64,000 nt of DNA from Methanoplanus limicola DSM 2279. Lineage in GTDB: Archaea > Halobacteriota > Methanomicrobia > Methanomicrobiales > Methanomicrobiaceae. The position numbers were made by a program, and so were the translations under genes. Shown one piece after another: positions 12,362-49,031 of the stretch. How positions within the stretch are numbered: position 1 is the first letter of the stretch; each line of letters opens with the position of its first letter. The notes under the pieces were generated by a model. That model did not search any database. It saw only the letters and a program-made list of their open reading frames with translations, and was not told where the DNA came from. Location: assembly GCF_000243255.1 (NCBI RefSeq), contig NZ_CM001436.1, forward strand, positions 2,134,957 through 2,198,956, in the 5' to 3' direction.

Positions 12362-13021
12362 TCATGGCAGTGCTCCGGAAGTTTTTTTGGATATAACAAC
12401 CCAGAATCCCTCATCCCCGTGAATAATATCATAATCCGGCACCCCTATATCAACAAGCATATCCTTAAAACGCTTTATATTTTCATCAGACATATTTTTC
12501 CGTGAAAATTCCTCCCATTCGGGATTTTTGCGTATCATTTCGGCTGAAACACTCTCAAAAAGCTCTTTATTCCCAAACCCGCCACCGATATAAGTCTTTC
12601 CGCCAGGTTTTAATATGCGGTAAATCTCCTTAAATGCCGTATGAATATCATCCCAGAAGAACATTGAACCACGACTTATTATAAGATCTGCATAATCATC
12701 ACCAAACGGCATATCATGAACATCCCCACAGGTCAGTGTTATTCTCCCTTCAAGCCCTGCTTCTATGATATTTTTTGACGCTGCTTCCTGCATATCCTCA
12801 GAATAATCAAAAGCTATAACATCCAGATCAGTTTTTTCTGCAACTGCAATGGAAAGCGATGCAGGACCGCTTCCAAGATCAATACATATACCTTCATTTA
12901 TTCCAAATCTTCTGATAATATTATCCACAATTACCGGATATATCGGTGCAAATACAGTTTTGGCGATATTATTCATATTTCCTGAACCTTTTTTATCAAA
13001 TCTTTTCTTACTGTCAGTCAT
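12362..13021 (-). CDS. Class I SAM-dependent methyltransferase
   Basis: A 219-residue Rossmann-fold methyltransferase (Methyltransf_11/25 type). Motif I is CIDLGSGPASLSIA at about residues 46-60, the acidic end of strand 2 is VIAFDYSED, and motif III/post is LTCGDVHDMPFGDDYADLIISRGSMFFWDD at 100-130 followed by EIYRILKPGGKTYIGGG. The last feature is typical of small-molecule (arsenite, ubiquinone or mycolic-type) methyltransferases, but no substrate can be named. ATG 13021 begins a basic stretch; an ATG 16 codons later would also keep the whole domain. It is monocistronic. Confidence 0.85.
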   Translation of the reverse strand: MTDSKKRFDKKGSGNMNNIAKTVFAPIYPVIVDNIIRRFGINEGICIDLGSGPASLSIAVAEKTDLDVIAFDYSEDMQEAASKNIIEAGLEGRITLTCGDVHDMPFGDDYADLIISRGSMFFWDDIHTAFKEIYRILKPGGKTYIGGGFGNKELFESVSAEMIRKNPEWEEFSRKNMSDENIKRFKDMLVDIGVPDYDIIHGDEGFWVVISKKTSGALP

Positions 13022-13223
13022 AACAATAACCTGAAGTCTCCCGGATTAATAATTATATCCGGCAATACAATGATATAAATTAACAATTTGTAAAAAGAAA
13101 AAATGATTCCATTTACGAATGGAATTGGGGGAAGCATCTTATTTTTATCAGGAGAGTATTTTTAGGGATATTAACTGAAATTACCAAACCTGAAAAGATG
13201 AAAATCTGATTTTTAAGATAAAT

Positions 13224-14054
13224 TTAAAATGGCAGCCCCAGGAATGAAAAAACTCCTGCCATCTTAAGCCCCATATAGACCATGACAGCAATGAAGACAT
13301 ATTTAAGCTGCTTTGCCGGAAGTCTGTGTGCAGCCCGGACACCTGCCTGCGCCATAATAATAGCCGGCACTGCAAGAAGAACCCACTGAAGAAGGTTTAC
13401 ATAGCCAACAGAATAGGGAGGCAGTCCTGTAACCGAAAGTCCGTTTATAATATATGAAATGGTTCCGCCAAATGCCGCAAATACCATAAGTGCCGTAGAA
13501 GTGCCGACAGCATAGTGAATCCTGAAATGAAGCAGATATACCATCACCGGAATAAGTACAACACCCCCGCCTATACCGATAATTCCGGACAGCATACCTG
13601 TCAGGATTCCACAGATCAGGTATATATAGGTGTTATCCACAATGGGTTTATCCACTTTGGGTGTTCTGGCGGTCAGCATTCTTACTGCACTGATAATTAT
13701 TACAGCGCCAAATATACCTCTGAGCAGATCTGCCGGAATCATAGTTGCTGCATAACCACCAATAACTGCACCAAATAATCCTGCAATACCCATGGTAAAT
13801 GCCGCATTCCAGACGACAACTCCCCTTTTGCAGTGTCCATATGCACCGGAAAGAGCAGTCGGCAGCACAACCGCAAGATTAGTCCCGAATGTAACCAGAA
13901 TTGAGATCTGAGGGTCATAACCCATCGATGTTAAGACCCAGTACTGCACCGGAACCATAATGAACCCGCCGCCAACACCCAAAAGACCGCTGGCAAAACC
14001 GACTATAATTCCGGTGAAGAGAAGTATAAGTATGTAAATTAATTCCATTTCCAT
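13224..14054 (-). CDS. TauE/SafE-family membrane exporter, copy 1
   Basis: A 276-residue protein with seven to eight hydrophobic segments and two internally related halves, each with the glycine-rich family motif: GFASGLLGVGGGFIMVP near residue 20 and GILTGMLSGIIGIGGG near residue 160. The TauE/SafE (PF01925) family moves sulfite, sulfoacetate or other small anions across the membrane. The substrate here is unknown. The neighbour at 14185-15015 is a close paralogue, offset 961 bp. Confidence 0.88.
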   Translation of the reverse strand: MEMELIYILILLFTGIIVGFASGLLGVGGGFIMVPVQYWVLTSMGYDPQISILVTFGTNLAVVLPTALSGAYGHCKRGVVVWNAAFTMGIAGLFGAVIGGYAATMIPADLLRGIFGAVIIISAVRMLTARTPKVDKPIVDNTYIYLICGILTGMLSGIIGIGGGVVLIPVMVYLLHFRIHYAVGTSTALMVFAAFGGTISYIINGLSVTGLPPYSVGYVNLLQWVLLAVPAIIMAQAGVRAAHRLPAKQLKYVFIAVMVYMGLKMAGVFSFLGLPF

Positions 14055-35167: not shown

Positions 35168-38044
35168 ATGACCAATAGTAAGCCGGAAAATTGTCCGGGC
35201 GATAAACTTTTCAAATATTATCCGGAAGATTTCAGCGAGCCTGCCGTAGATGTAATTCATATGGACCTTGAATTTGACATCTATGATGACCATACCATAA
35301 CAGATTCACAAATTCACCTGAAATCACCCAAAAATCCGGTGGAGAACTTAACCTTAAACGCAAAAAATCTTGAAATTAAGCTTGTCGAATCATCCGGACA
35401 TGAACTGACATACGAATATGACACTGAAAAAAGCCTCCTTAATATCTCATTTAAAGATAAAATTCCGGCAGGAACAGAATTTACAGTCCATACCAGAAGC
35501 GTCTGCCGGCCAACCGCAAACATCCTTGAAGGCCTGTATTACGATGTAACACCAGATGGTGCACCGCCACAGCAGATAACCCAGTGCCAGCAGTGGGGAT
35601 TTCAGAGAATAGTCCCCTGCATTGACGAGATGACCGCGAAATGCACATACACCACCACAATAAAAGCCGACGGGAGATACACAAATCTCATCAGCAACGG
35701 AGATATATCCGTGCCCCGGCATGACATCGGCAACGGGCGTGTATCAATCACCTATTCCAACGAAATTACGCCTATGGCGCCATATCTCTTCTTCCTGGGT
35801 GCCGGCACATATGACACATTCACCCGTGAATTTGAATATCCAAACGGCAAAAAGTTCAGTCTTGAACTGCTTGTTCCGCCCGGAAGCAGCAGAGAAGAGG
35901 CAGAAAGTGCCCTTGAGATCCTTGCAGACGGGATTATGTGGATGTATCTTTTCACCGGGCCGGAGCAGTATCGTGATACCGATATCCGTCAAAAAATGTA
36001 CGAACTTGCAAAAGAGAGAGACAGGCTGAAATTTTCAGCCGGAAATCCGGATAAGACCGCCCATGTAAGAGAAGTGCTTGCAGAACTGTCCAAAACGATT
36101 CATCCGGGATACAGTTACACCGGCACAGTGTACCGTGAGATAGGCATGCAGAACTCTGACTTTGGCGGCATGGAGAATGTCGGAAATACGACCATTACAA
36201 CAAACAGGATAATGCCCTTCTCACAGATTACAGACCCGGCATATGAATACCTGACCCGTGTTAAGGTGCATGAATTTTACCACAACTTAAACGGCTCTGA
36301 GGTCACAGGGCAGAGTCCCTTTGAGATCTGGCTCAATGAAGCAGTAACAGTTTTTATTGAGGATCAGTATCACGCCTTTAAATTCGGAGAAGATTACGCC
36401 CGGCTTCAGACTGTAATTGATCTTTTGGCCCCCGGAAACGGCACTATGGCATATGACCGGGGCACAGGTTCAATTCCAATTGAGCCTGACGGATTCAATG
36501 ACCCAAATGACCTGATAACAGGTGTCACCTATGTCAAATCGCCGGAATTTGTAAGGATGATTGAGACACTTATGGGAAAGGAGGCTTTTGCCCGTGCACT
36601 TAACCGCTACCATACAGAGTTCAGCCACAGAAATGCGACAGGAAGAGACTGGCTGAAGGTAATGGAAGAGGAGTCCGGCCTTGACTTCTCAGTTATGGCA
36701 GGACAGTGGCTTAAGCAGACCGGATATCCGGAGATAAAGGTCTCTTCGGATTACAGCCCTAAAGAACGGCGGCTTGCTGTTAAGATAGAGCAGTCAGGCC
36801 AGAAGGAAACGGACATGTGGGAGTTTCCACTCTCCATTGTACCTGTCGGAGCGGCCGGCACTGATCTGGCAGACATAACGGTCAGAGTCAGGAACAGAAC
36901 AGAAGAAATAGTCATTAATAATATTGATCAGCCACAGTTTATATCATACAGCAGGGGCTATGGCGTTTATGGTAAGGTCTTCACCGATACTCCGGCTGAA
37001 AAACTGATACTTCAGGCAGGAAATGACCGTGATGTAACAAATCGGTTTATCGCATTCTACAGGCTTTTAGACCTTGAAAAGATGCAGATCATTGAAAATC
37101 CCGGACATGAAATCTCAGGACACATATCTGATCTCTATATGGAATTTTTAAGGGATGATGAACTTATCCGGAAGACCGGCGGACTTTTACTGACAATTTT
37201 TGAGTCTGTTGATGACGAGTCATATGCCCACAATTACAGGCTTATGTATGATATTAAGCAGAAGATCTGCAGGGCTGTTGCTTCCCGGAATTATGATGAA
37301 CTTGTCAGGATTTATCAGAAATACAGTTCTCAAATCTCTGCCGGCAACTCCGGGGGATCAGGCCCTGACAGCATTATTGCCGATATAAAGCCAAGGCAGG
37401 TTAAAAATACGGTGCTGAATCTCCTTTCATCCCTCGATCTGCCAAAAATTCATGATATGGCAAAGAAACAGTTTGAATATTCCACAAATGCCTCAGACAG
37501 GCTCACAGCATTTTCATTTTATTTAAACAGCAGTGCGGACGACAGAGCCGAAATGCTGAATAAATTCAGGTCAGAGTCGATGGCACACCCGGTGAGCCGG
37601 GAAGCCTTTTATGCGGCAGTTGCCGGATGCAGCAGGGACGATACAGCTGAACTTGTAAGGACACTGATGAACTCACCTGATTTCAACATTGAGCAGGCAA
37701 ACGACCAGAGAGCTTTATTCGGGCGGTTTGCACAGAATAAGAAGATCTCACTTGAGACAGAAGCCGGCAGAGAACTCCTCTCAGAAATTCTGAAAACTCT
37801 CATTCCGGTAAACGAATACAGCAGTGTAAACATCCTCTCAGTATTCGGCAACCTTGACAGGATGGACAAGGAATATCAACCGCCCTGCGTCAGGCTCCTC
37901 CTTGAAGCATTAGATTCCGCAGATAAAGATAACACTCCGGCGGTGTACAACACAATAAGGCGTATTCTGATAAAATCCCCCGTAGCTGTTAAGAGTTATG
38001 AAAATTCAGACGGGGTTATGCCTGAGTGGCTTATAGGGAAATAA
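35168..38044 (+). CDS. M1-family zinc aminopeptidase
   Basis: 958 residues with no signal peptide, so cytoplasmic. The zinc site is HEFYHNLNGSEVTGQSPFEIWLNEAVTVF: HExxH near residue 373 and the third ligand Glu in the WLNEA block 23 residues later. The substrate N-terminus loop reads GGMENVG in place of the usual GAMEN. The C-terminal half is an ERAP-like all-helical domain. Relatives include the tricorn-interacting factors F2/F3, which finish proteasome or tricorn peptides to single amino acids. The ATG at 35168 begins MTNSKPENCPGDK. It stands alone and converges on the minus-strand island. Confidence 0.92.
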   Translation: MTNSKPENCPGDKLFKYYPEDFSEPAVDVIHMDLEFDIYDDHTITDSQIHLKSPKNPVENLTLNAKNLEIKLVESSGHELTYEYDTEKSLLNISFKDKIPAGTEFTVHTRSVCRPTANILEGLYYDVTPDGAPPQQITQCQQWGFQRIVPCIDEMTAKCTYTTTIKADGRYTNLISNGDISVPRHDIGNGRVSITYSNEITPMAPYLFFLGAGTYDTFTREFEYPNGKKFSLELLVPPGSSREEAESALEILADGIMWMYLFTGPEQYRDTDIRQKMYELAKERDRLKFSAGNPDKTAHVREVLAELSKTIHPGYSYTGTVYREIGMQNSDFGGMENVGNTTITTNRIMPFSQITDPAYEYLTRVKVHEFYHNLNGSEVTGQSPFEIWLNEAVTVFIEDQYHAFKFGEDYARLQTVIDLLAPGNGTMAYDRGTGSIPIEPDGFNDPNDLITGVTYVKSPEFVRMIETLMGKEAFARALNRYHTEFSHRNATGRDWLKVMEEESGLDFSVMAGQWLKQTGYPEIKVSSDYSPKERRLAVKIEQSGQKETDMWEFPLSIVPVGAAGTDLADITVRVRNRTEEIVINNIDQPQFISYSRGYGVYGKVFTDTPAEKLILQAGNDRDVTNRFIAFYRLLDLEKMQIIENPGHEISGHISDLYMEFLRDDELIRKTGGLLLTIFESVDDESYAHNYRLMYDIKQKICRAVASRNYDELVRIYQKYSSQISAGNSGGSGPDSIIADIKPRQVKNTVLNLLSSLDLPKIHDMAKKQFEYSTNASDRLTAFSFYLNSSADDRAEMLNKFRSESMAHPVSREAFYAAVAGCSRDDTAELVRTLMNSPDFNIEQANDQRALFGRFAQNKKISLETEAGRELLSEILKTLIPVNEYSSVNILSVFGNLDRMDKEYQPPCVRLLLEALDSADKDNTPAVYNTIRRILIKSPVAVKSYENSDGVMPEWLIGK

Positions 38045-38056
38045 TCAGGAACTAAA

Positions 38057-38923
38057 TCATCTTTTTTTTGCGCAACATTCACCTAAAATTCCAGGAATCG
38101 ATTCCTCATATAAGATCTGATCACGCCTGAGAATATTATCCAGAAAAGATGAAATTGTCAAAACATCTTTATTCAGACAGTAATTATTCTGTCCTATTTT
38201 GATATAACACAAACAAAATTCAGATTTCAGATTGTTAAGCAACTCAAAACCTTTACCCAGTTCAAATGTTGGGTACAGTTGTTCAAATTTATCTCTTTCA
38301 GGCCTATTAATACTTTGAATAAGATTTCTTGGAAGATAAAGATGTGAAAATTCATTCATGCTAATCTGTAGCAGCGAAGCGTATTTTGCAAGCGCAATAT
38401 TATACTGAAAATAAAACCTGTAATAATCACCTTTTGTTATAACATATGAGGCATGTTCAAAGGAATCAATAAACTGATCTGTCAATTTATCGATAATTGT
38501 AACAGGATCAACCACCTCTGAATGCTGAGAACACAGAAATTCATCATTCAATATCCCGTGTTTGTCAATTAAAATAGAATCTCTATACTTCTTTATTTCA
38601 GAATATGGAAAATATTTAAACAATAATTTTTTATCTGAAGAAATTATTATATCAGTTTTTAAATTTATTTCTGAGTAATAGAGAATTATCTTATTTTTTT
38701 CAGGATTCAGAAGTAGATTAATTTGGTCACAAAATATTGCTTCAATATCATTTTTTATTCCTGGAATATCTTCTTCTCTGCCCACTATTAAAAACAGGTC
38801 AATGTCAGAATTATGGGAAAAATCTTTTTTTCCAAAAGATCCAAATGTAATTAAACCAAAAATATTCTCTGCATTAGACACATATCTATATATTTGATCT
38901 ATAATATCATTGTGGAAAATCAT
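38057..38923 (-). CDS. Nucleotidyltransferase with helical C-terminal domain
   Basis: 288 residues. Residues about 20-110 are a polymerase-beta-type nucleotidyltransferase with GSFGKKDFSHNSDIDLFLIV, whose GS and D-x-D residues are all present. The remainder is helical and resembles the substrate-binding half of antibiotic or small-molecule nucleotidyltransferases rather than the very short MNT antitoxins. It is the last of three minus-strand genes, 4 bp after the kinase-like gene. It could transfer a nucleotide to a small molecule or protein of this cluster. The last codons overlap the T-run that may also end the convergent plus-strand transcript. Confidence 0.75.
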   Translation of the reverse strand: MIFHNDIIDQIYRYVSNAENIFGLITFGSFGKKDFSHNSDIDLFLIVGREEDIPGIKNDIEAIFCDQINLLLNPEKNKIILYYSEINLKTDIIISSDKKLLFKYFPYSEIKKYRDSILIDKHGILNDEFLCSQHSEVVDPVTIIDKLTDQFIDSFEHASYVITKGDYYRFYFQYNIALAKYASLLQISMNEFSHLYLPRNLIQSINRPERDKFEQLYPTFELGKGFELLNNLKSEFCLCYIKIGQNNYCLNKDVLTISSFLDNILRRDQILYEESIPGILGECCAKKR

Positions 38924-38927
38924 AAGG

Positions 38928-39452
38928 TCACAGTAATAAATCAGTTATTTTTTTAGCAACATAATCTGGGTTCTCATTTTCAGCCGGCATTATTCTGCTA
39001 AAATAAAAATCATAAAAATGCCTCCTTAAAAAATCCCACCTAAGTTCAATGTTTGAGTATATACTTATTATCGACTCCTCAATATCACCCCATTGATATG
39101 GTGCCGGCACAGCATTTTTCCGTAATTTTGCTCTTTTATTACAGACTGATATTGGAGTATCAATCCAGAATACAGATATCTCGGCTCCAGACTGTAAAAG
39201 TGCATTATAAATATTTTCAGCATGAATTCCTGAGCCGGAAAACTCCAGAATTAAAGATTCCTTGTTATTGCATTTCTCAATAAATCTGTATTGTGCAAAA
39301 TATTCACCCGAATACGAATTATCTATGTTTTCCAGCCTAAAATTATCAAGTGAATAATAAGGAAGTGATAATCTTTCAGAAAGAACATCTGAAATAGTAG
39401 TTTTCCCAGCTCCTAGTGTTCCTATAAGCAGAATTTTTTGCAGGGACATCAC
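38928..39452 (-). CDS. P-loop kinase-like protein (AAA_17/AAA_33 type)
   Basis: 174 residues. Walker A is IGTLGAGKTTISDVL at residues about 11-25. A downstream strand, SLILEFSGSGIHAENIY, and a lid-like Arg-rich stretch (CNKRAKLRKNA) match small nucleoside or metabolite kinases of the adenylate-kinase-like group. The substrate is unknown. It overlaps the upstream gene by 4 bp (ATGA) and is followed 4 bp later by the nucleotidyltransferase, so the three are co-translated. Confidence 0.72.
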   Translation of the reverse strand: MMSLQKILLIGTLGAGKTTISDVLSERLSLPYYSLDNFRLENIDNSYSGEYFAQYRFIEKCNNKESLILEFSGSGIHAENIYNALLQSGAEISVFWIDTPISVCNKRAKLRKNAVPAPYQWGDIEESIISIYSNIELRWDFLRRHFYDFYFSRIMPAENENPDYVAKKITDLLL

Positions 39453-40273
39453 CTCCCATAAAATTTACAGACTCTGCATTCTCCACCTTTATTATGTTCC
39501 TCTACAATATCAGGATATTTTTTATGAAATCCTGCCCAGCCTCCATCCAGACAGACAATATTATTAATATTAAACATTGATTTTAACAATGCTCCAAAGA
39601 TATAACTTCTTGTACTGCCCTCAGGCTCTTCCCCTTTAACCAGTGGCCCCTGGCTCACCATTATAAATTTTTTTAATGAATTATTCAGCGTTATTTTACT
39701 CAATTCCCTGAATTTATCTTTTTTAGTTAGATCAATGTAAAAATATGGAATATTAAATACAAAATTTATATTTTTATTGTACTTTAATGGCAAATGCCCT
39801 TCTCCCCACTCCTTTTCTGTTCTTACATCAATCACTATTATTTCTTCATTTGAATCAAGAATCTCCATCAGTTTATCGGGTGAAATATCCGGAATTTTAA
39901 TAACTTCTTCTATTCTCTCTTTTTCACATAACAGGCAGTGACCGTTGTACCCAATCTGGTGTTTTCTGCAAAAATTTTTGACATCATGACCAAGATCCAG
40001 ATGTGCTTTTATGTCACAGTCCGGACATAGTGCCTTATTGCAGTCCTCGCAGATCATGATATATGGTAAGTTATGCTCTTCACATACAAGCTGTTCATTC
40101 CTTGCAATTGTGAGAAGTTCATCCCATTTCAGATCATGTTTTTTCTCGAGTAATTTCCGGACATATCCATTGACACTTTTTGAATCGCTTTTTCCCATTG
40201 ACCAGTCAATGACTTCTTTTGTATCATTATCTACTGCAATAGATGTTCTGCCCGGGGTTTTTCTTTTACGCAT
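39449..40273 (-). CDS. Ribbon-helix-helix/B-box zinc finger/rhodanese-like protein
   Basis: 274 residues from the ATG at 40273 (MRKRKTPGRTSIAVD). A start 26 codons upstream is possible but adds an unrelated stretch over the promoter-like region. Residues 5-60 look like a ribbon-helix-helix DNA-binding domain. Residues about 65-125 hold a B-box-like zinc finger, C-x2-H-x7-C-x2-C-x4-C-x2-C, plus a second Cys/His group (CRKHQIGYNGHCLLC). Residues 135-260 are rhodanese-like (VIDVRTEKEWGEGHLP, CLDGGWAGFHKKYP), but the catalytic-loop position reads MVSQGPL...GSTRS with Ser where the active-site Cys is expected, so sulfurtransfer is doubtful. The C-terminus has another CxxC (CRVCKF). A DNA-binding regulator of the divergent cluster is plausible. 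Confidence 0.7.
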   Translation of the reverse strand: MRKRKTPGRTSIAVDNDTKEVIDWSMGKSDSKSVNGYVRKLLEKKHDLKWDELLTIARNEQLVCEEHNLPYIMICEDCNKALCPDCDIKAHLDLGHDVKNFCRKHQIGYNGHCLLCEKERIEEVIKIPDISPDKLMEILDSNEEIIVIDVRTEKEWGEGHLPLKYNKNINFVFNIPYFYIDLTKKDKFRELSKITLNNSLKKFIMVSQGPLVKGEEPEGSTRSYIFGALLKSMFNINNIVCLDGGWAGFHKKYPDIVEEHNKGGECRVCKFYGR

Positions 40274-40343
40274 AATACTCACAGATAATTGTATTAAGTA
40301 TTCAACATCAAAGCATATATCTGTTTTTGCATAAAATCGCATA

Positions 40344-40395
40344 CAAAACAAAAATATTCAAAACAAAAATATTCAAAACAAAAATATTCAAAACA
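40344..40395. repeat. 15-bp tandem repeat, about 3.5 copies
   Basis: The unit caaaacaaaaatatt is repeated from 40344, 40359 and 40374 with a partial copy after. It lies between the divergent promoters of the B-box gene and the small SMP-like genes, 71 bp upstream of the B-box gene start. It may be operator sites or simple slippage. Confidence 0.9.
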
Positions 40396-40405
40396 CATAT
40401 ATGTG
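40394..40405. promoter_or_regulatory. Perfect 12-bp palindrome in divergent promoter region
   Basis: cacatatatgtg is a perfect palindrome touching the end of the 15-bp repeats. Its core could be the TATA box for the plus-strand small genes (start at 40501) or a repressor site. Confidence 0.4.
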
Positions 40406-40500
40406 CTGAGGAAGAATCATTATTGTGGTTACAGAGGTTGCAAAAGATCAGAGCAAATCTGTCAGTGCAATAAGCTCTGCAATTACAAAAACCAGAGGAG

Positions 40501-40641
40501 GTGATAAATATAACAAAAAAGAGCAGCAGAATGACTTCTGCTGACGCAGGCAGAATTCAGGCACATGCAGACCGGAACAATACAAACCAGAGTTTTAAGG
40601 CAGCGGCACAGAGAGCAGCAGCAAAGAACAGCAAAAAATAG
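40501..40641 (+). CDS. SMP-like small protein, copy 1
   Basis: A 46-codon gene with core MTSADAGRIQAHADRNNTNQ and end FKAAAQRAAAKNSKK. The pattern M-T-x-x-D-A-x-R-I-Q ... F-x-A-R-A-Q-x-A-A-x-K-N matches the seed maturation protein domain (SMP, PF04927) known from plant LEA proteins and short prokaryotic proteins. A near-perfect Shine-Dalgarno (ggaggtgat, 40497-40505) overlaps the GTG at 40501, so the true start may be the ATA at 40510, at normal spacing. It is the first of three tandem copies with a 146-bp period. The function is unknown; stress protection, or a peptide substrate of the enzymes downstream, are options. Confidence 0.65.
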   Translation: MINITKKSSRMTSADAGRIQAHADRNNTNQSFKAAAQRAAAKNSKK

Positions 40642-40646
40642 AGGAG

Positions 40647-40787
40647 ATGATTATCATAACAAAAAAGAGCAGCAGAATAACTTCTGCTGACGCAGGCAGA
40701 ATTCAGGCACATGCAGACCGGAATGGCACAAACCAAGGCTTTAAAGCAAGAGCACAGAAAGCAGCAGAAAAGAACAACAAAAAATAA
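40647..40787 (+). CDS. SMP-like small protein, copy 2
   Basis: 46 codons from ATG 40647. It differs from copy 1 at several residues (R-I-T-S in place of R-M-T-S, GTNQGFKARAQKAAEKNNKK at the end) and fits the SMP consensus F-K-A-R-A-Q best of the three. The internal Met used as a possible start in copies 1 and 3 is Ile here, which argues that translation starts upstream of it in all copies. Confidence 0.65.
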   Translation: MIIITKKSSRITSADAGRIQAHADRNGTNQGFKARAQKAAEKNNKK

Positions 40788-40792
40788 AGGAA

Positions 40793-40933
40793 GTGATTAT
40801 CATAACAAAAAAGAGCAGCAGAATGACTTCTGCTGACGCAAGCAGAATTCAGGCACATGCAGACCGGAACAATACAAACCAGAGTTTTAAGGCAGCAGCA
40901 CAGAGAGCAGCAGCAAAGAACAGCAAAAATTAA
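40793..40933 (+). CDS. SMP-like small protein, copy 3
   Basis: 46 codons from GTG 40793, again with a Shine-Dalgarno (ggaagtgat) that overlaps the GTG and is spaced 4 bases before an in-frame ATA. The protein is almost the same as copy 1 except Ser in place of Gly in DA(S)RIQ and Asn for the last Lys. The epimerase gene begins 31 bp later. Confidence 0.65.
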   Translation: MIIITKKSSRMTSADASRIQAHADRNNTNQSFKAAAQRAAAKNSKN

Positions 40934-40964
40934 ACAAAATTAAAACCTATTTTTTGGCATTATA

Positions 40965-41912
40965 ATGAGAAACATTTTAATTACAGGCGGAAATGGCTTC
41001 ATTGGAACAAGCCTTTCAGAAAAACTGATTAACAGAAATATAAGAATTGTCTCTTTCGATATAAATCCTCCAAAAAATCAGGAACTTAAAAATCTAAACA
41101 ATTTCACTTATATCAAAGGAGATATAAACAATAAATCAGATCTCAAAAAACTTTTTTCAGAGCATGAATTTACAGGAATAATACATCTTGCCTCAGTATC
41201 CCGCGTAATTGATGGTGAAAAAGATCCGGATTTATGCAGGAAAACCATTGTTCACGGCACAAAAAATCTGACTGATGAAATTGCATCATCCAGTAACCAA
41301 CCCTTCATAATTTACGGAAGCAGCCGTGAAGTTTATGGAGAATCCCAGAGTCTTCCGGTTTTGGAATCCTCAGGATATAATCCGGTGAATGTTTACGGTG
41401 AAAGCAAAGCTGAAGCAGAGAAAATTATCAGAACTGCTTCAGAAAAACTGAAATTGAAATCAGTAATTCTCCGGTTTTCAAATGTGTACGGCAACCGATA
41501 TGACATAAATGACAGAGTCATTCCAAGATTTATCCTTGGAGCGCTAAACAATAATATTCTGGAAATACACGGAGGCAGGCAGATATTTGACTTTACAAAT
41601 ATTGATGACACTGTTGCCGGAATAGAATGTACAATTCACCACCTGCTAAAGGAAGATATTCCCAAAGGGTATTGTGAAGATTTCCATATCACTACCGGAA
41701 ATTCATGCTCATTGTACGATGTGGTCAATATAATCAGAAAAATTACCGGTAAAAATACCCAATATAAACTAACTCCGGAAAGAAGCTATGATGTCAACAG
41801 ATTTGTTGGCAATCCACAAAAGGCCATAGATATACTGGGTTATAATCCTGAGACTGATCTTGAAACCGGAATAAAGAAAACAATTGATTCATACAGAGGT
41901 GAACTGAATTGA
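40965..41912 (+). CDS. NAD-dependent sugar-nucleotide epimerase/dehydratase
   Basis: 315-residue extended short-chain dehydrogenase. The NAD loop is ITGGNGFIGTSLSEKL at residues 5-20. The catalytic region has S near 117 in IYGSSREVYGE and Y-x-x-x-K in YGESKAEAEKI near 142-146. LRFSNVYG and the TNIDDTVAGI block are typical of UDP-glucose 4-epimerase/dTDP-glucose dehydratase relatives. It probably makes an activated sugar for the glycosyltransferase that follows, whose TTG start overlaps its stop by 4 bp. Confidence 0.88.
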   Translation: MRNILITGGNGFIGTSLSEKLINRNIRIVSFDINPPKNQELKNLNNFTYIKGDINNKSDLKKLFSEHEFTGIIHLASVSRVIDGEKDPDLCRKTIVHGTKNLTDEIASSSNQPFIIYGSSREVYGESQSLPVLESSGYNPVNVYGESKAEAEKIIRTASEKLKLKSVILRFSNVYGNRYDINDRVIPRFILGALNNNILEIHGGRQIFDFTNIDDTVAGIECTIHHLLKEDIPKGYCEDFHITTGNSCSLYDVVNIIRKITGKNTQYKLTPERSYDVNRFVGNPQKAIDILGYNPETDLETGIKKTIDSYRGELN

Positions 41913-43129
41913 AGATATTAAAAGTAATACATGGCTACCCGCCCTACTACATGGCAGGTTCGGAGGTTTATACCTATAACCTCGTTAGAAAATTATCGGA
42001 AAAACATGAGATCTCTGTATTTACCAGAATAGAAAACGAATTTAAAGAACCATATAGTTATTATGATTCTGAAGAAGACGGCGTAAATATAAGACGTATA
42101 AACATACCACTTAGAGATTATTCATTATATCAAAAATACACAGATAAAAATACAGATAAATTGTTTGAAGAATACCTGACAGATGAAAAACCCGACATTG
42201 TCCACATCGGACACCTGTCACATCTCTCAACAAATATCGTCAGAATATCAAAAAAATACAATATTCCTGTTATTTATACCATACATGACTTCTGGCTCTT
42301 CTGCTTTGGGGGTCAGCTGATGACACCAGATCTAAAATCATGTCCGGGCAGGAATTTTAAAAACTGCTTTAAATGCCTTGATAAAAAGTTCAGAGGTTCT
42401 GAGAGTAAAGAATCCTTAGAGCAGTATTTCAGTCACATGAATGAAATTATTGATCTCATTGACATCTTTATTGCTCCTTCCAGCCACGTAAAAAACTGGT
42501 TTGAAGAAGCAGGTGTACCTTCTGGAAAAATAATTCATGAACGATATGGCTTTGAAAAATTCCGGATAAAAAAACAGGAAAAAGAATTCAGCAACGAATC
42601 AGAGATCATTTTTGGATATACCGGCAGAGTGATTCCTGTGAAAGGGATAGATAAACTGATAAATATCTTTGCTTTACCCGAACTAAAGGATACAGAACTT
42701 AAAATATTTGGCAATACAGGATCAGCAGATCTATTTTTGAGCAGTAATTCTGAAAGTAATATAAGTTTTAACGGTTCTTACCACAACAATGAAATCTCAG
42801 ATATTCTGGAAAAGATCGATGTATTAATTGCACCTTCAATGTGGTATGAAGTTTCTCCACTCGTAATTCAGGAAGCACAGATTGCAGGAGTACCGGTAAT
42901 AACAACAGATTACGGTGGAATGGCAGAGCTTGTTGATGATCGGATAAACGGATTTAAATTTCCTGTAAATGACTGGAATTCCCTGAAGAGTCTGATTATT
43001 GAAATCAAAAATAATCCTTTGATGTTAAATACACTAAAATATGCCGGAAAAAGTGTAATTGACATAAAAGAGCATGCAGACAAAGTGAGCAGGATATATG
43101 AAACGGTGATCGCAAATGCAGACAAATAA
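41909..43129 (+). CDS. GT4-family glycosyltransferase
   Basis: 406 residues from TTG 41909 (overlap TTGA with the epimerase stop). N-terminal GT-B features are HGYPPYYMAGSEVYTYNLVRKL; the acceptor loop has IPVIYTIHDFWLFCFGG with a Cys-rich CPGRNFKNCFKCLDKKF insert seen in several GT4 enzymes. The donor-side C-terminal half has FGYTGRVIPVKGIDKLI and the E-x7-E motif region SPLVIQEAQIAGVPVITTDYGG. It transfers a sugar from a nucleotide donor to an unknown acceptor. Confidence 0.88.
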   Translation: MKILKVIHGYPPYYMAGSEVYTYNLVRKLSEKHEISVFTRIENEFKEPYSYYDSEEDGVNIRRINIPLRDYSLYQKYTDKNTDKLFEEYLTDEKPDIVHIGHLSHLSTNIVRISKKYNIPVIYTIHDFWLFCFGGQLMTPDLKSCPGRNFKNCFKCLDKKFRGSESKESLEQYFSHMNEIIDLIDIFIAPSSHVKNWFEEAGVPSGKIIHERYGFEKFRIKKQEKEFSNESEIIFGYTGRVIPVKGIDKLINIFALPELKDTELKIFGNTGSADLFLSSNSESNISFNGSYHNNEISDILEKIDVLIAPSMWYEVSPLVIQEAQIAGVPVITTDYGGMAELVDDRINGFKFPVNDWNSLKSLIIEIKNNPLMLNTLKYAGKSVIDIKEHADKVSRIYETVIANADK

Positions 43130-44156
43130 TAAATGTTCTCCCTGGAGAATTACCTTTGAGACAAATCCCGGAATATGCAACCTAAACTGCATAATGTGTG
43201 AACAGCACAGCCCATATAACAAAATAAAAGAGAAAAAGGGGACACTTCCAATAGAGTGCATAACAGATATCATCAGAAAAGCTTCTAAACACGGACTGAA
43301 AGAGATAATCCCCAGTACTATGGGAGAACCGCTGTTATATTCCGATTTTTTAAAGATCATTGAATGCATTAAAGGTCTTCCGGTAAAAATTAATCTTACA
43401 ACAAACGGAACATTTCCAGTTTATGGTGCAGACAGATGGGGAGAACTCATTCTTCCATATTCCACCGACACTAAAATTTCAGTTAATGGTGCTTCTGCAA
43501 AAACTGCCGAGTCAATAATGAAAGGGCTGAATTTCAGACAGCAACAAAAAAACATCAGTCAATACATTCACCAGAGAGATATAGTCAGAAATTCCGGAAT
43601 AAACGCTCCGTCAGTTACCATCCAGACAACCTATATGGCTGCAAATCTGACTGAAATTCCCGACATTCTTAAATCTGCTATTGAGATGGATGCTGACCGT
43701 TTCAAAGGTCACCATATGTGGATTACACATGAAAACCTGAAAGATCAGTCCTTAAGAAATGATCCCAAACTGATCAGCAGATGGAATGAAACTGTTGATC
43801 TGCTGCACAACATAGCAGAAAATTTACCCCGTCCTTCAGGTGATCGCATCAGACTTGAGAATGTTTTCAGGCTTAATGATGAAGGAAAACCGTTACAGGA
43901 CGAAAATAACGGATTTATGTGCCCTTTTGTGGGCAATGAGGCATGGATTCAGAGTGACGGATCATTTAGTCCCTGCTGTGCACCAAAATCAATCAGAGAT
44001 AACTTTGGTCATTTCGGGAATGTTTTTGAAAGTGATTTTATTGAGATCTGGAACAGCAAAAAGTATCAGGAATTCAGAAATTATGCCGGCAATTCCGGTT
44101 ATTGCAATGATTGCAATATGAAAATTCCATTAATATCTGGGGAAAAACAGAAATGA
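43116..44156 (+). CDS. Radical SAM/SPASM-domain enzyme
   Basis: 346 residues. The [4Fe-4S]/SAM motif is CNLNCIMC (CxxxCxxC) at about residues 21-28, with TTNGT and QTTYMA barrel strands. A C-terminal SPASM-type Cys set follows: CPFVGNEAWIQSDGSFSPCC near 270-289, then CNDC near 333. SPASM enzymes include peptide-modifying (RiPP) and sugar- or substrate-modifying enzymes. Here the neighbours are glycan genes, while three small peptides lie upstream of the epimerase. It overlaps the glycosyltransferase gene by 14 bp and the WG gene by 4 bp. Confidence 0.88.
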   Translation: MQTNNKCSPWRITFETNPGICNLNCIMCEQHSPYNKIKEKKGTLPIECITDIIRKASKHGLKEIIPSTMGEPLLYSDFLKIIECIKGLPVKINLTTNGTFPVYGADRWGELILPYSTDTKISVNGASAKTAESIMKGLNFRQQQKNISQYIHQRDIVRNSGINAPSVTIQTTYMAANLTEIPDILKSAIEMDADRFKGHHMWITHENLKDQSLRNDPKLISRWNETVDLLHNIAENLPRPSGDRIRLENVFRLNDEGKPLQDENNGFMCPFVGNEAWIQSDGSFSPCCAPKSIRDNFGHFGNVFESDFIEIWNSKKYQEFRNYAGNSGYCNDCNMKIPLISGEKQK

Positions 44157-44890
44157 ACATTTTAAAAGGAAAAGATGAAAAAATAATCAATAATATATCA
44201 GTATCATTTGATGAAAAATATCACATTTTAAATGAAAGCCCATTATATTCCAAGAAATTTGATCATGTGATGAGTTTTCACAAACCCGGACTGGCCGCGG
44301 TAAAAGACAGTTCTGGCAGCTATCACATAGATATAAAAGGAAATGCAGCCTATAAAAGAGTTTTTTTAAGCACATTCGGATTTTACAATGAGATTGCTGC
44401 TGTAAGTGATGAAAGTGGTTTTTTCCATATAAGACCTGATGGATCTGATCTCCATAACTCCCGTTATGCATGGAGTGGTAATTTCCAGGAAGATAGATGT
44501 GTAGTCCGGGATTTTTCAGGAGATTATTTTCATATAGATAACAAAGGCAATAAACCATACTCTGAGAAATATGCCTATGTTGGTGATTACAAATATGGTA
44601 TTGCATGCGTATATGATTATAATGGACTTGCCACACATATCGATCTGAATGGCCATCTCATTCATGGAAAAATGTTTGAAGAATGCTCCCCTTTCCATAA
44701 AGGTCATTCTGTTGTAAAAGAGAAATTCGGTTATTTTCATATTGACAAATATGGAAATGAACTATATAGTGAGAGATTTTTATGGATTGAATCATATTAT
44801 AACGGAGTTGCACTTTGTAGAACAAAAGACGGCAGATTATGTAGATTAAGTGATAAAGGTGAATTAACAGCAATTTATGAGGGAAAATAA
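44153..44890 (+). CDS. WG-repeat protein
   Basis: 245 residues from ATG 44153 (ATGA overlap); a start at 44111 would only run back into the upstream gene. The protein is almost wholly made of about six repeats of 30-40 residues with the pattern Y-x-H-I-D-x-x-G-N-x-x-Y-x-x-(R/K)-(F/Y), for example YFHIDNKGNKPYSEKYAYVG and YFHIDKYGNELYSERFLWIE. This is the WG (KWG) beta-repeat family, found in many bacteria and thought to form a solenoid or propeller. It has no signal peptide. The role is unknown; a binding scaffold for the enzymes of this operon is a fair guess. Confidence 0.8.
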   Translation: MNILKGKDEKIINNISVSFDEKYHILNESPLYSKKFDHVMSFHKPGLAAVKDSSGSYHIDIKGNAAYKRVFLSTFGFYNEIAAVSDESGFFHIRPDGSDLHNSRYAWSGNFQEDRCVVRDFSGDYFHIDNKGNKPYSEKYAYVGDYKYGIACVYDYNGLATHIDLNGHLIHGKMFEECSPFHKGHSVVKEKFGYFHIDKYGNELYSERFLWIESYYNGVALCRTKDGRLCRLSDKGELTAIYEGK

Positions 44891-45564
44891 TGTCGGAAAA
44901 TAAGATTATTAAATCCATTGAAAATAATCTGACAGATTTCTCAGATGTTTCTTCAGTAGCAATGATAATAAGGCATGCTGAAAGAGGCATAATCCCGGAA
45001 AATGAAAGCGGTTTTCATGTGAACCTTACTGATAAAGGTGAAAATGATTCCATTAAATTCGGAGAAGAGGTTAACAAAATCCTTAGAAAATCAGGATTTG
45101 ATCTGGATATATATACCAGTCCGGTACCAAGATGTCTGAATACTGCTGAAAATATTATTAAAGGTACAGATAGAGAAATATTATATAAAATATCTTCTTA
45201 TCTTGGGGATCCCGGAGTTTACATATCCGATGACACTATTGCAGGTGAAGCCTTCCTGAACAGAAATGCTTCTGATGTTATAGATGAATATCTAAAAAAA
45301 GGAGAAATGAAGGGATTTCATAAACCTGAAGAAGCAGGCAACAGATTATTATCCTTAATTAGCAAATCACTGAATAACCAGAATAATTTTACAGTCCATA
45401 TATCACATGATGCTATAATAGCACCATTTGTGCATCATCTGGTGGGTAATAACTCCGGAATTATAATCTGGCCGGATTTTCTTGAAGGAATGATATTCAT
45501 AAGAAAGAATAATGAAATTACCTGCTGCTTTGATAACAGAATATTCAAAATTTCAGAGGTTTAG
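44890..45564 (+). CDS. Histidine phosphatase superfamily protein
   Basis: 224 residues. The phospho-histidine site is IIRHAERG at about residues 21-28 (R-H-x-x-R), the acid or base region is YTSPVPRCLNTAENI near 75-90, and the second catalytic His is in VHISHDAIIAPFVHHL near 175-190. It may remove phosphate from a metabolite made by this pathway. It overlaps the WG gene by 1 bp and is 2 bp before the carbamoyltransferase gene. Confidence 0.85.
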   Translation: MSENKIIKSIENNLTDFSDVSSVAMIIRHAERGIIPENESGFHVNLTDKGENDSIKFGEEVNKILRKSGFDLDIYTSPVPRCLNTAENIIKGTDREILYKISSYLGDPGVYISDDTIAGEAFLNRNASDVIDEYLKKGEMKGFHKPEEAGNRLLSLISKSLNNQNNFTVHISHDAIIAPFVHHLVGNNSGIIIWPDFLEGMIFIRKNNEITCCFDNRIFKISEV

Positions 45565-45566
45565 CT

Positions 45567-47279
45567 ATGCTTACTGTAGGAATTTACGGCATACCTGACA
45601 CATCCGGATTTTCCGGATCTCCGGCATACAGCCACGATCATTCCCTTACTCTTATGAGGGAGGGCAGAGTACTGTCATATATTCAGCTTGAAAGATATAC
45701 TCAAAAAAAGCATGATAACCGGCTTTGTGACTATATTGAAGAAATACTCAGTGATCTTCTCTCCCTTCATTTAAGAGCAGATGAACCCTTAAGATTTGTT
45801 ATGGCAAATTCCTTTTTAGGGGATTCGTTCATATCTTCCGGCGGAAATCTGCGTATTGAACCTAAAAAAATATTAAAAATAGAAGAGATCATTGCTCCTG
45901 CAAGGTGCAGTTTTTTCCCGGACGGACTTGAGAAAAAAGAATGTGAAGCATATATAATCTGCCATGAATTTGCACACATTGCTTCAGTCCTTCCTTTTTA
46001 CAGAGATTTCCCAAACAACTCCCTTTTAGTTCATCTGGATGGCGGAGCTTCAGTCTCAAACTGTTCTGTCTGGCATTATGATAAAGGCAAAATCAGGCTC
46101 CTTGACCATTCATGGGACAAACTTAAAAAATATGTCAACAATTTTAATGCGAATCCACTTGTAAGATTTATTCTGAACCATGAACCCTCAGATCATCTGG
46201 CAATTCCTGGAAAACTGATGGGCTATAGTTCATATGGAAATGACAATGAGTACGTCAGGAAATGGCTTATTGAAAATAATTTCTTTCTGGATTTTACTGG
46301 TGAAAAAGAAGAACTCTTAGCTACAATAAATAATAAATTCAAAACAAAATTTAAGACTTATGACTTGGATAAACAATTTTTTAAAGATGTTGCCTTTGCG
46401 ATTCAAAGAGAATTTGAAGAGAAAGTGATAGATTATCTCTCTGTCTGGCAGGAGAAATGTTCTGCTGAAAATCTTGTATATTCAGGTGGAAGTGCTCTGA
46501 ACATAATTTTGAACTCTAAAATTCAGCGATCAGGCAGATTCAAAAAGATCTGCATTCCACCTGCTGTGAGTGACTGCGGCCTTTCGCTTGGGGCAGCCAG
46601 TTATCTGGAATGGAGAGAACATGGAAGTATTAAAAAACATAGTCCTTTCCTGAATAATTATCCTGACAATTCAAAAGATAATAAACCGTTTTTAAATCCA
46701 CAGGAGATCGGCGATCTTATTTATCAGAATAAAGTAATTGGACTTTTCATTGGAAATAGTGAAACCGGCCCAAGAGCACTCGGTCACAGGAGTATTATTG
46801 GAAGACCGGATAATTATGAGCTTAGAATTAAAATCAGTGAATCAATAAAAGGACGGGAATGGTACCGCCCTGTTGCTCCGGTAATGACTGAAAAAATTGC
46901 TAAAAAGGTACTTGTTGAAGATATCAAAGAGGATAATCTATGTAGGTTTATGCTTGGAGCCTATAATGTAAAAGAAGGTTACCAGGATAAATTGTCAGGT
47001 GTAATTCATGCGGACAATACAGTTCGTGCCCAGATAATATACAAAAATGATTCTGATACAGAATTATTATACAGAATTCTTGAATATCTGGAACAGAAAT
47101 ATGAAATATTTGCCCTGATCAACACGTCATTTAATATCAGGGGCAGACCTATTATTCAGAGACCTGAAGATGCTCCCTCACTTGCAGAAAAAATGGGGCT
47201 TGATGGAATCATAATTAATGGAAATACATATATATTACACAACACATACTTAAAATCTGAATTTAAACCTCAAAAATAA
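45567..47279 (+). CDS. NodU/CmcH/TobZ-type O-carbamoyltransferase
   Basis: 570 residues. The N-terminal half is Kae1-like: H-x-x-x-H metal ligands in CHEFAHIASVLPFY, and LLVHLDGGASVSNCSVW. The C-terminal half is YrdC-like with FIGNSETGPRALGHRSIIGRP, GREWYRPVAPVM and INTSFNIRGRPIIQRP. Such enzymes make carbamoyl-adenylate from carbamoyl phosphate and ATP and pass the carbamoyl to a hydroxyl of a sugar or natural product. That strongly supports a small-molecule, glycan or peptide-conjugate product for this operon. It is the last gene of the run. Confidence 0.92.
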   Translation: MLTVGIYGIPDTSGFSGSPAYSHDHSLTLMREGRVLSYIQLERYTQKKHDNRLCDYIEEILSDLLSLHLRADEPLRFVMANSFLGDSFISSGGNLRIEPKKILKIEEIIAPARCSFFPDGLEKKECEAYIICHEFAHIASVLPFYRDFPNNSLLVHLDGGASVSNCSVWHYDKGKIRLLDHSWDKLKKYVNNFNANPLVRFILNHEPSDHLAIPGKLMGYSSYGNDNEYVRKWLIENNFFLDFTGEKEELLATINNKFKTKFKTYDLDKQFFKDVAFAIQREFEEKVIDYLSVWQEKCSAENLVYSGGSALNIILNSKIQRSGRFKKICIPPAVSDCGLSLGAASYLEWREHGSIKKHSPFLNNYPDNSKDNKPFLNPQEIGDLIYQNKVIGLFIGNSETGPRALGHRSIIGRPDNYELRIKISESIKGREWYRPVAPVMTEKIAKKVLVEDIKEDNLCRFMLGAYNVKEGYQDKLSGVIHADNTVRAQIIYKNDSDTELLYRILEYLEQKYEIFALINTSFNIRGRPIIQRPEDAPSLAEKMGLDGIIINGNTYILHNTYLKSEFKPQK

Positions 47280-47525: not shown

Positions 47526-49031
47526 TTATGCAACGTGGATGTATTTTGCAACGAGTTCTGCTATAGCTTCATCGTTACCGTAGAGTTTCTCAGAAAGTCC
47601 CTTGTCTTTGTATGCCTTGAGCATCTCGATTCTTGCGTCAATCATGTTTGCCGGGAAGATATCGTTCTCCTCGAATACTGCACGCTTCTCAGCAAGAACA
47701 TCTGCTGATTCTTCGCATGAAACAGGGAGCTGCTTGAGCTGTGCAAGGCGTTCCGCATTTTCAGGTGCAAAGATGTTTACATTAACGTAGAGATCATCTG
47801 CCCTCTCGACACCGTCTTTCATGTTAAGTCCGTGGAGTGAACCTACGATAAGACTTGCAACAAGGAGATATGGGTCTGCTGATCCGTCACCGACACGGTA
47901 TTCAAAGGTCTGCTTTGATGGTCTGTCAAGTGAAATTGTAACATCGCCCGGATTTGCGTCCAGTGTCATGCTCTTGTCTACATTCCATCCAAGTGGTACA
48001 CGGATAACAACTGAGCGGTTGCGGTCTCCCCAGCAGATATTTGTTGGTGCTTCCTGGTGTGGAACGAGGCGGAGGTATGATGTTGGAACTGTGTTTCCAA
48101 ATGCAGTAATTGCATCACCAATGTCAAGGACACCTGCAATCATCTTCTTTGCTGTTGTGCTCAGAACACCATTCTCAACGAGGAGGTTTTTGCCGTCCTT
48201 CTCTGCGAGCATGTGAATGTGAAGACCTGAACCTGCCTTTCCGACTGTGATCTTTGGTGCAAAGCTGATCTCAACGCCGTATCTGTATCCGAGCATCCTG
48301 ACCATCCACTTTGCGATGATGAGTGATTCGACTGCCTGCTCTGCCGGCATTGGAAGGAACTCAATCTCGTGCTGCTCATTGTATACTTCGCCCTGAGTAA
48401 AGCATCCTACTTCAGAGTGGCCGTACTTGATCTTTCCGCCTGCCTGTGCAATGAGCTTCATTGCTTCGACACGGAGTTCTTCGTATTTTACAAACGGCTC
48501 AACGGAGTGATATCCCTTCTGGTCAACAGGTGGGAAGACATCTTCTTTGTCACCGATTACGTAGTACTCAAGTTCTGCAAGGCACTTGAAGGTTGCACCG
48601 GTCTGCTTTGTAAATTCAGCGTCTGCCTTCTTAAGGATTGTCTCTGCTGAGGATTCAAGTGGCTTTCCTTCATTGTCATAGTATGAACAGAGTATCTCAA
48701 GTGTAGGGATTTCTGTGAATGGATTTACGAAAGCTGTCCTGTAGCGTGGAATTACGTACAGGTCACTGCTCTCTGCTCCGACAAATGAGAAGAGACTGCT
48801 TCCGTCAACCCTCTCTCCGTCTGTGAGGATTGTATCAAGGTATTCCTTTGATGAGATAACAAAGTTCAGCATCTTAAGTTTGCCGTCTCCACCCTCATAG
48901 CGGAAGTTAACCATCTCAATACCTTTTGCCTCACAGAAGGCAACAATATCGTCTTTTGTAAATTCTGAAGGGGATTTCTTCAGAAACTGAACGAGTTCGT
49001 TCGGGTTCATTGCAACTTCATTGATTGTCAT
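47526..49031 (-). CDS. glnA: Glutamine synthetase, type I
   Basis: 501 residues; makes glutamine from glutamate, ammonia and ATP. Motifs: DGSSLFSFVGAESSDLY (beta-grasp end and latch), ECLAELEYYV-type glutamate-binding strand, GHSEVGCFTQGEVYNEQHEIEF, HIHM in KAGSGLHIHM, VPTSYLRLVPHQEAPTNICWGDRNRS with the substrate Arg residues, and a C-terminal NMIDARIEMLKAY. It is longer than the usual 440-470 residues by an N-terminal 20-residue extension and extra surface loops. ATG 49031 is used here; an ATG seven codons on (MNPNEL) is possible. The TATA box suggests a very short leader. Confidence 0.93.
   Translation of the reverse strand: MTINEVAMNPNELVQFLKKSPSEFTKDDIVAFCEAKGIEMVNFRYEGGDGKLKMLNFVISSKEYLDTILTDGERVDGSSLFSFVGAESSDLYVIPRYRTAFVNPFTEIPTLEILCSYYDNEGKPLESSAETILKKADAEFTKQTGATFKCLAELEYYVIGDKEDVFPPVDQKGYHSVEPFVKYEELRVEAMKLIAQAGGKIKYGHSEVGCFTQGEVYNEQHEIEFLPMPAEQAVESLIIAKWMVRMLGYRYGVEISFAPKITVGKAGSGLHIHMLAEKDGKNLLVENGVLSTTAKKMIAGVLDIGDAITAFGNTVPTSYLRLVPHQEAPTNICWGDRNRSVVIRVPLGWNVDKSMTLDANPGDVTISLDRPSKQTFEYRVGDGSADPYLLVASLIVGSLHGLNMKDGVERADDLYVNVNIFAPENAERLAQLKQLPVSCEESADVLAEKRAVFEENDIFPANMIDARIEMLKAYKDKGLSEKLYGNDEAIAELVAKYIHVA

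Follow-up and report, generated by a model that had tools for sequence, protein, structure and literature searches.

The Undecim Cluster of Wolbachia phage WO (WD0611-WD0621), which also occurs on the rickettsial plasmid pREIS2 and has WD0612-WD0614 as its core, is a conserved and expressed island that a phage carries in a major insect symbiont, and an exopolysaccharide or LPS role has been suggested for it (PMC9203015, PMC4701759). Literature searches on WG repeats (PF14903) together with radical SAM, and on radical SAM, glycosyltransferase and carbamoyltransferase in methanogens, returned Wolbachia papers only and no archaeal account. In the window, the 64,000-nucleotide stretch of the Methanoplanus limicola DSM 2279 genome analysed here, epimerase, GT4, radical SAM/SPASM and WG domains lie adjacent and in the same order as in WD0612-WD0614. 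The epimerase (EPI) is the equivalent of UC2/WD0612, the GT4 and radical SAM (rSAM) proteins are those of the N-terminal and C-terminal halves of UC3/WD0613, and the WG protein is that of the N-terminal half of UC4/WD0614. The original prediction, which called the locus undescribed-looking, was therefore partly wrong as regards this core (PMC9203015, PMC4701759), while for the archaeal occurrence and the tailoring set no published account was found.

The locus comprises three tandem 46-codon small genes spaced by 146 nt, six co-directional genes downstream and three divergent genes upstream (Table 1). Every one of the three small genes and six enzyme or scaffold genes of the original prediction is present, and the six-gene run from EPI to the carbamoyltransferase (CARB) overlaps or abuts as had been described, with gaps of -4, -14, -46, -1 and +2 nt. 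The extent first given, 40425-47279, holds real genes but is too narrow, because the rhodanese/B-box, kinase (PLK) and nucleotidyltransferase (NTase) genes at 38057-40351 belong to the unit. The motifs GxxGxxG, YxxxK, EX7E, CX3CX2C, RHAE, HxxxH and GPRALGxRS are all intact in the window genes.

Table 1. Features of the cluster, in positions of the window.
Feature	Position	Strand	Basis
NTase, MNT-type	38057..38923	-	Pfam Polbeta 8e-7, NTP_transf_2 2e-5; GS...DID motif
PLK, shikimate-kinase-like P-loop kinase	38928..39452	-	Pfam SKI 4.5e-8; Walker A GTLGAGKT
Putative regulator	39449..40351	-	Pfam zf-B_box 6e-8, Rhodanese 6e-5
Divergent regulatory region, shared	40352..40500	.	AAAACAAAAATATTC repeats and CACATATATGTG palindrome, from sequence
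SMP-like small protein, copy 1	40501..40641	+	ATA codon at 40510 a possible start
SMP-like small protein, copy 2	40647..40787	+	
SMP-like small protein, copy 3	40793..40933	+	
EPI, NAD-dependent nucleotide-sugar epimerase/dehydratase	40965..41912	+	Pfam Epimerase 2e-40
GT4 glycosyltransferase	41909..43129	+	Pfam Glycos_transf_1 3e-26; EX7E
rSAM, radical SAM/SPASM enzyme	43116..44156	+	Pfam SPASM 2e-14, Radical_SAM 2e-10; CX3CX2C
WG-repeat beta-propeller, 259 aa	44111..44890	+	WG_beta_rep 25.6, exactly at cut-off
Histidine phosphatase (HP), branch 1	44890..45564	+	Pfam His_Phos_1 1e-5; RHAE
CARB, O-carbamoyltransferase, NodU/TobZ type, both domains	45567..47279	+	Carbam_trans_N 2e-22, Carbam_trans_C 7e-47

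An aminopeptidase-like and a glnA-like gene flank the cluster. The distance between them is 9.5 kb in the window and 1.4 kb in a sister species, and the cluster is one 9.5-kb island that was placed as a block. It is a real, transferable unit, and its relatives are widespread. When GTDB genome contigs were searched with a 6-row rSAM alignment, 456 relatives were obtained (an earlier 2-row alignment had confirmed none), and the order epimerase, GT4, radical SAM/SPASM and WG is kept in nearly all of the best 80 of them, from Asgard archaea, Methanolobus, Chloroflexota, Myxococcota, Rickettsiales, Chlamydiae and Cyanobacteria. The core is also carried on Arsenophonus plasmids and by phage WO, whose rSAM is 44% identical to that of the window over 97% (tblastn, E 2e-91); among viral contigs there is one full relative (L101, 43%), the other rSAM matches being short and weak. 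The window rSAM and phage WO UC3 share the same 64-row side of the rSAM tree with respect to two outgroup rSAMs (100/100). The window's branch is long and groups with archaeal rows; its exact place and that of G009 are unsure because these two long branches meet. In alphaproteobacteria and Rickettsiales, an ABC exporter, PhyH oxygenases and two PLP enzymes lie 3' of the core. EPI was detected nearby in 33 of 55 well-covered loci, and the phosphatase likewise went undetected in some loci, which counts against the glycoside reading given below.

Across the relatives the genes are joined in various combinations, namely EPI-GT4, GT4-rSAM (one protein in most bacteria), WG-MT, WG-PLK, WG-HP and NTase-PTP, MT being a methyltransferase and PTP a tyrosine phosphatase. 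These fusions, together with multi-phylum synteny and the block insertion of the island, bear out the earlier view that the genes serve one pathway. HP is fused to WG in L009, L010 and L011; PLK is fused to WG in L019, L020 and L082 and adjoins it in L024, L047 and L073; and CARB keeps the same cluster position in L009, L017, L018 and L019. NTase homologues lie inside the operon, fused to PTP, in L019, L020, L024, L047 and L082. The kinase and nucleotidyltransferase noted earlier across the regulatory region are accordingly part of the system. In tests that were post hoc, made on related sequences from the best 80 rSAM matches and blind to kinship, PTP and HP never occurred together in the 55 well-covered loci (0/6, p 0.008) and PLK co-occurred with NTase and PTP (p 1e-6). 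Among the six CARB loci, an MT-domain match was found only in L009, as a separate gene outside the operon. The caps thus alternate between O-methyl and O-carbamoyl types and the phosphatases between histidine and tyrosine types, the window being the carbamoyltransferase/phosphatase/kinase/nucleotidyltransferase variant of the core.

The fusions, alternative caps and alternative phosphatases point to a small tailored glycoside, for which the WG beta-propeller would be the substrate platform, and a horizontally transferred biosynthetic cassette for such a compound is the interpretation towards which we lean. EPI, whose nearest solved structure is UDP-glucose 4-epimerase (4zrm, 2e-30), would act on a nucleotide sugar, likeliest a UDP-hexose or UDP-hexuronate, and fix its stereochemistry or oxidation state; GT4 would transfer the sugar so shaped onto an acceptor. 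The UDP-glucose dehydrogenase-family genes found near 7 of the sampled clusters also speak for the glycoside reading. The rSAM protein, beside or fused with the glycosyltransferase, could then make a carbon-centred change on the glycoside, such as the dehydrogenation, epimerisation or decarboxylation known from BtrN, DesII and BlsE chemistry.

With its Radical_SAM and SPASM domains above cut-off and its CX3CX2C motif, this enzyme belongs to the radical SAM/SPASM proteins. Its model (pLDDT 92) matches the folds of SuiB, BlsE, DesII, PqqE and MoaA among the matches listed, with Z-scores of 24.0 for SuiB, 23.6 for BlsE, 21.7 for DesII and 17.6 for BtrN, and its C-terminal part matches BtrN by sequence (7e-5). 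Peptide-modifying enzymes match the model at equal or higher Z, which was counted against the glycoside reading. The search of solved structures by sequence gave no close homologue of rSAM or GT4 among the matches listed. Assignment as a tungsten-oxidoreductase rSAM maturase was dropped (93 bits, cut-off 380), as was assignment as a viperin (6.6e-9, 34 bits, compared with about 250 bits for true prokaryotic viperins, pVips).

The WG protein, whose AlphaFold model (pLDDT 92.5) matches beta-propeller structures and which carries six His and one Lys that are invariant in 55 homologues, may hold a common intermediate and offer it to its frequent fusion partners, the tailoring enzymes; its true start probably lies 3' of 44111, since the model shows no structure for its first 14 residues. 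A phosphate or nucleotide group would be put on and taken off by the kinase, nucleotidyltransferase and phosphatase, the last being a branch 1 enzyme with RHAE and, in a later HD motif, a His invariant in four homologues. CARB, a NodU/TobZ-type protein by its Carbam_trans_N and C domains, HEFAH (the HxxxH metal motif) and GPRALGHRS, would cap a hydroxyl at the point where most bacterial versions O-methylate. The SMP-like proteins would be co-regulated helpers rather than a dedicated substrate. The rhodanese/B-box protein, which has an N-terminal ribbon-helix-helix-like segment (by eye), a B-box zinc finger and a rhodanese-like domain in which no catalytic Cys is clear, is probably a local regulator; its homologue adjoins the cluster in L009, L019 and L020 and occurs in 3 of 150 relatives, each time next to an smp gene.

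The small proteins form a real family: 18 of 150 related genomes contain 24 matches between them. Their resemblance to SMP was seen by eye only; a Pfam search of the small ORFs found no family at 0.01, SMP/LEA seed maturation proteins included, and a search of one of them found no NCBIfam family. Outside clusters, 16 of 20 smp copies in relatives have a prokaryotic viperin gene no more than 1.1 kb away. It has been considered that the cassette serves antiviral chemical defence, with a product that blocks viruses as viperin nucleotides do, and that smp and the regulator link it to a defence regulon. Besides smp, which marks viperin/Csa3-type CARF loci as well as the window cluster, the Methanolobus vulcani operon starts with a viperin gene, PLK weakly matches the viperin-associated kinase VakA (1.7e-5), two operons contain an NYN RNase gene, and the spread is patchy, with plasmid and phage carriage. 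However, the core enzymes gave only weak cross-hits to PADLOC models in a scan of those other than WG, EPI and CARB, some variants carry the exporter genes, phage WO itself carries the core, and most bacterial copies have few recurrent neighbours beyond it, so that we consider a defence function unlikely.

The small proteins could also be ribosomal precursors that are modified by rSAM and then glycosylated, carbamoylated and phosphorylated. Five archaeal clusters have such genes at the 5' end (three copies in the window, and in G009, G276, Borrarchaeum and Heimdallarchaeota), the copy at the cluster is the genome's sole one in G009, G276 and G460, both copies of G461 are at the cluster, and the rSAM/SPASM fold is common to the RiPP maturases SuiB and SkfB. 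A constant absence of the small genes from homologous runs had been named beforehand as refuting the original prediction, and it is not what was seen, since they recur in archaeal clusters. Yet no smp gene was seen in any sampled bacterial cluster, in the phage WO annotation or in the Methanolobus vulcani and profundi clusters, and the proteins have no Cys and one conserved pattern instead of a leader and variable core. As most copies found apart from the cluster lie by viperins and the sampled bacterial clusters have none, smp does not qualify as a precursor gene dedicated to the cluster and is probably not the dedicated substrate of rSAM, and these comparisons favour a separate small protein. 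A peptide product is accordingly quite improbable, and the small repeated proteins are more likely virus-defence-linked helpers than raw material of the cluster. A cell-surface glycan pathway (S-layer, capsule or LPS), as proposed for the Wolbachia cluster, would suit the epimerase, GT4 and UDP-glucose dehydrogenase-family genes (near 7 sampled clusters), all common in such pathways, but is very unlikely: the cluster has a single glycosyltransferase, neither a polymerase nor a flippase was seen among its genes, the envelopes of the hosts, which range from Rickettsiales to archaea, differ greatly, and a nucleotidyltransferase, kinase and phosphatase are unusual in such pathways.

Returning to the tailored glycoside, Asgard archaea, methanogens and free-living bacteria that have the core provide tractable hosts for finding the Undecim product, and the wider family separates core enzymes from exchangeable ones, the window adding a carbamoyl/phosphate-type archaeal version. 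In methanogen relatives the tiny smp family marks viperin loci, which opens a way to study how archaeal viperins are controlled or assisted. As a long shot, cross-domain glycoside cassettes on phages, plasmids and chromosomes might make antiviral or host-acting small molecules and, in archaea, be wired in through the viperin-accompanying SMP-like protein, which would then serve radical-SAM-based immunity as a shared partner or signal.

Among other known systems, the O-carbamoyltransferases NodU and TobZ share with the window CARB the two Pfam domains as well as the motifs HxxxH and GPRALG, although CARB scores 107 bits against a NodU cut-off of 1000. BtrN, BlsE and DesII, of aminoglycoside, nucleoside and sugar pathways, share the fold of the window rSAM and a place in glycoside pathways, but at 10-19% identity, too low to infer chemistry. 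The pVip loci with a Csa3-type CARF protein resemble the window in that a small smp-like gene adjoins a radical SAM gene, and a viperin is embedded in one sister cluster (L017), whereas the window rSAM is a SPASM enzyme without viperin's NWHxT..CNYxCxFC signature. The Undecim Cluster in the strict sense, with its WG-O-methyltransferase fusion, PhyH, ABC exporter and two L-allo-threonine aldolases, differs from the window, in which GT4 and rSAM are separate genes, WG has no fused O-methyltransferase, and the PhyH, threonine-aldolase-like and ABC exporter genes are replaced by phosphatase, carbamoyltransferase, kinase, nucleotidyltransferase, regulator and smp genes.

The NTase (MNT-type nucleotidyltransferase), the P-loop kinase, the putative regulator, the small SMP-like genes and the six-gene run together form one island at a variable chromosomal site, since the conserved flanking genes lie 9.5 kb apart in the window and only 1.4 kb apart in the sister species (G001), where the site holds a different small cassette that includes a nucleotidyltransferase-like ORF. 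The six genes follow the small ORFs on the same strand, with intergenic gaps of -4, -14, -46, -1 and +2 nt. Pfam and NCBIfam confirmed the epimerase, the glycosyltransferase (GT4), the radical SAM/SPASM enzyme (rSAM), the histidine phosphatase and the two-domain carbamoyltransferase, the WG-repeat protein matched Pfam at threshold, and the catalytic motifs of the run are intact. A B-box/rhodanese protein (the regulator), the kinase and the NTase are encoded on the opposite strand. The gene description in the original prediction was accurate, and the six-gene run stands as described; the unit itself is larger, as the divergent NTase, kinase and regulator belong to it.

Coordinates of features in the window and in related loci
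Feature	Locus	Position	Strand	Remark
Aminopeptidase-like flanking gene	window	35168-38044		DNA identity to G001 86-92%, range for both flanks
AT-rich repeats	window	40300-40420		candidate operators
Small ORF array	window	40501-40933	+	three 46-codon ORFs in tandem, 146-nt period
Glutamine-synthetase-like flanking gene	window	47526-49031		DNA identity to G001 86-92%, range for both flanks
Viperin gene	L017 (Methanolobus vulcani)	12660-13724	-	first gene of epimerase-GT4-rSAM operon
Transposase-like ORF	L020	4272-5711		lies between two pieces of the regulator gene
WG-histidine phosphatase fusion	L010	9530-10690		rest of cluster absent; directly adjoins glyceraldehyde-3-phosphate-dehydrogenase-like gene
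WG-histidine phosphatase fusion	L011	10257-11504		as L010
Regulator, MATE-like transporter, NTase homologue and small gene	L143	4358-8204		core cluster absent; regulator match (whole-genome search) has one internal TAG
Nucleotidyltransferase-like ORF and 91-aa ORF	L177 (sister species, same chromosomal site)	642-1482		possibly AbiE-like pair

The rSAM family was found in one close genome besides the window's own (G009; 60 searched, the window's included) and in 6 of 393 genomes of the phylum, the window's own counted. G009 carries an epimerase-GT4 fusion and a WG-phosphatase fusion followed by the carbamoyltransferase, together with a divergent B-box/rhodanese gene and a small SMP-like gene upstream of the epimerase. 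Methanolobus vulcani and M. profundi (G189, G220) have the six genes in the window's order. In another genome, G276, the order is small gene, regulator, NYN RNase, epimerase, GT4, rSAM, WG-kinase fusion, NTase-tyrosine phosphatase fusion and carbamoyltransferase, and the divergent kinase and NTase of the window are therefore operon members elsewhere. The cluster at L020, where a carbamoyltransferase and a small gene were looked for and neither was found, is probably decaying.

Whether the small proteins are substrates of the rSAM enzyme or separate proteins had been left undecided. The family occurs in 18 of 150 related genomes, mostly as one copy each. Five genomes have members beside the cluster; of these, G009, G276 and Borrarchaeum have no further copy elsewhere, and the two copies of Heimdallarchaeota both stand there. 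Among relatives (loci among L143-L164), 16 of 20 non-cluster copies have a prokaryotic viperin (pVip) gene no more than 1.1 kb away, and viperin is present in 15 of 18 genomes with small genes versus 5 of 132 without (Fisher p 7e-14). With the PADLOC anti-phage defence models, all 16 radical SAM neighbours scanned, 15 beside small genes and one in the M. vulcani operon, matched pVip at 1e-30 or better. A locus of this kind is present in the genome of the window too (L159, G000:C1:1973988); its third gene, scanned at this locus, was called Csa3-type CARF (5e-93). The M. profundi operon (L018) lacks viperin, with the flanking coding sequence joined up. The most economical interpretation places the small proteins in a defence-linked regulon that the cluster joined in archaea, rather than making them its dedicated substrate. 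SMP-like genes also mark archaeal viperin loci, in which a gene of Csa3-type CARF is often present as well.

Five small-gene copies (those of the window array, L160 and L158) have a Shine-Dalgarno GGAGGTGA-type site whose spacing fits an ATA or ATT codon, which suggests either that initiation is non-standard or that a GTG/ATG overlaps with the ribosome site; their homologues have ATG or GTG at the same codon. Palindromic TGCATGCATATGCATGCA-type repeats, candidate operators, lie upstream of the small and regulator genes in L019 and L143.

Across GTDB genomes, the rSAM alignment retrieved 456 relatives, and among the best 80 of these GT4 and WG adjoin rSAM in nearly all, and the epimerase and a phosphatase are present in most. 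In many bacteria GT4-rSAM is a single protein of about 780 aa and WG carries a fused O-methyltransferase domain. Modules are exchanged around this core: in 55 well-covered loci, by post hoc tests that ignore kinship, tyrosine- and histidine-type phosphatases did not co-occur (0/6, Fisher p 0.008), the kinase was associated with NTase plus tyrosine phosphatase (p 1e-6), and a methyltransferase domain was found in just one of six carbamoyltransferase loci (p 0.006), namely L009, as a separate gene. Alphaproteobacterial and Rickettsiales variants add, after the core, PhyH oxygenases, two PLP enzymes of the beta-eliminating lyase/threonine-aldolase type and an ABC transporter. Seven clusters have UDP-glucose-dehydrogenase-family genes nearby.

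The WG protein is predicted to be a beta-propeller (pLDDT 92.5). Across 55 homologues, six of its histidines and one lysine never vary, and most blades hold a single one of these residues, which suggests a ligand site rather than simple packing. The rSAM model (pLDDT 91.8) aligns with SuiB, BlsE, SkfB, DesII, PqqE, MoaA, viperin and BtrN, confirming a predicted SPASM/twitch fold that does not discriminate between peptide and sugar substrates. We infer a tailored-glycoside cassette, in which the epimerase would act on a nucleotide sugar, GT4 would transfer the sugar, rSAM would carry out a radical modification, and WG may be a platform for methyl, carbamoyl, phosphate and nucleotide steps that can replace one another. 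Its product is possibly antiviral or host-acting, which would be of high interest if true.

The window rSAM shares 44% identity over 97% coverage with a Wolbachia phage WO protein annotated as glycosyl transferase/moaA-nifB-pqqE family, at a locus with the series epimerase, GT4-rSAM and WG-methyltransferase. This locus is the Undecim Cluster, WD0611-WD0621 (PMC9203015), of which WD0612-WD0614, described as epimerase, GT-radical SAM and KWG-repeat/O-methyltransferase proteins, are expressed and also occur on rickettsial plasmids (PMC4701759). Arsenophonus plasmids of about 20 kb also carry an Undecim-type core, and Brachyspira hyodysenteriae plasmids hold a more distant rSAM relative (about 28% identity). 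Within the literature library searched, no archaeal account of an Undecim-type cluster was found. The window shares with the Undecim core the epimerase, GT4, rSAM and WG, whereas in phage WO GT4 is fused to rSAM and WG to the methyltransferase.
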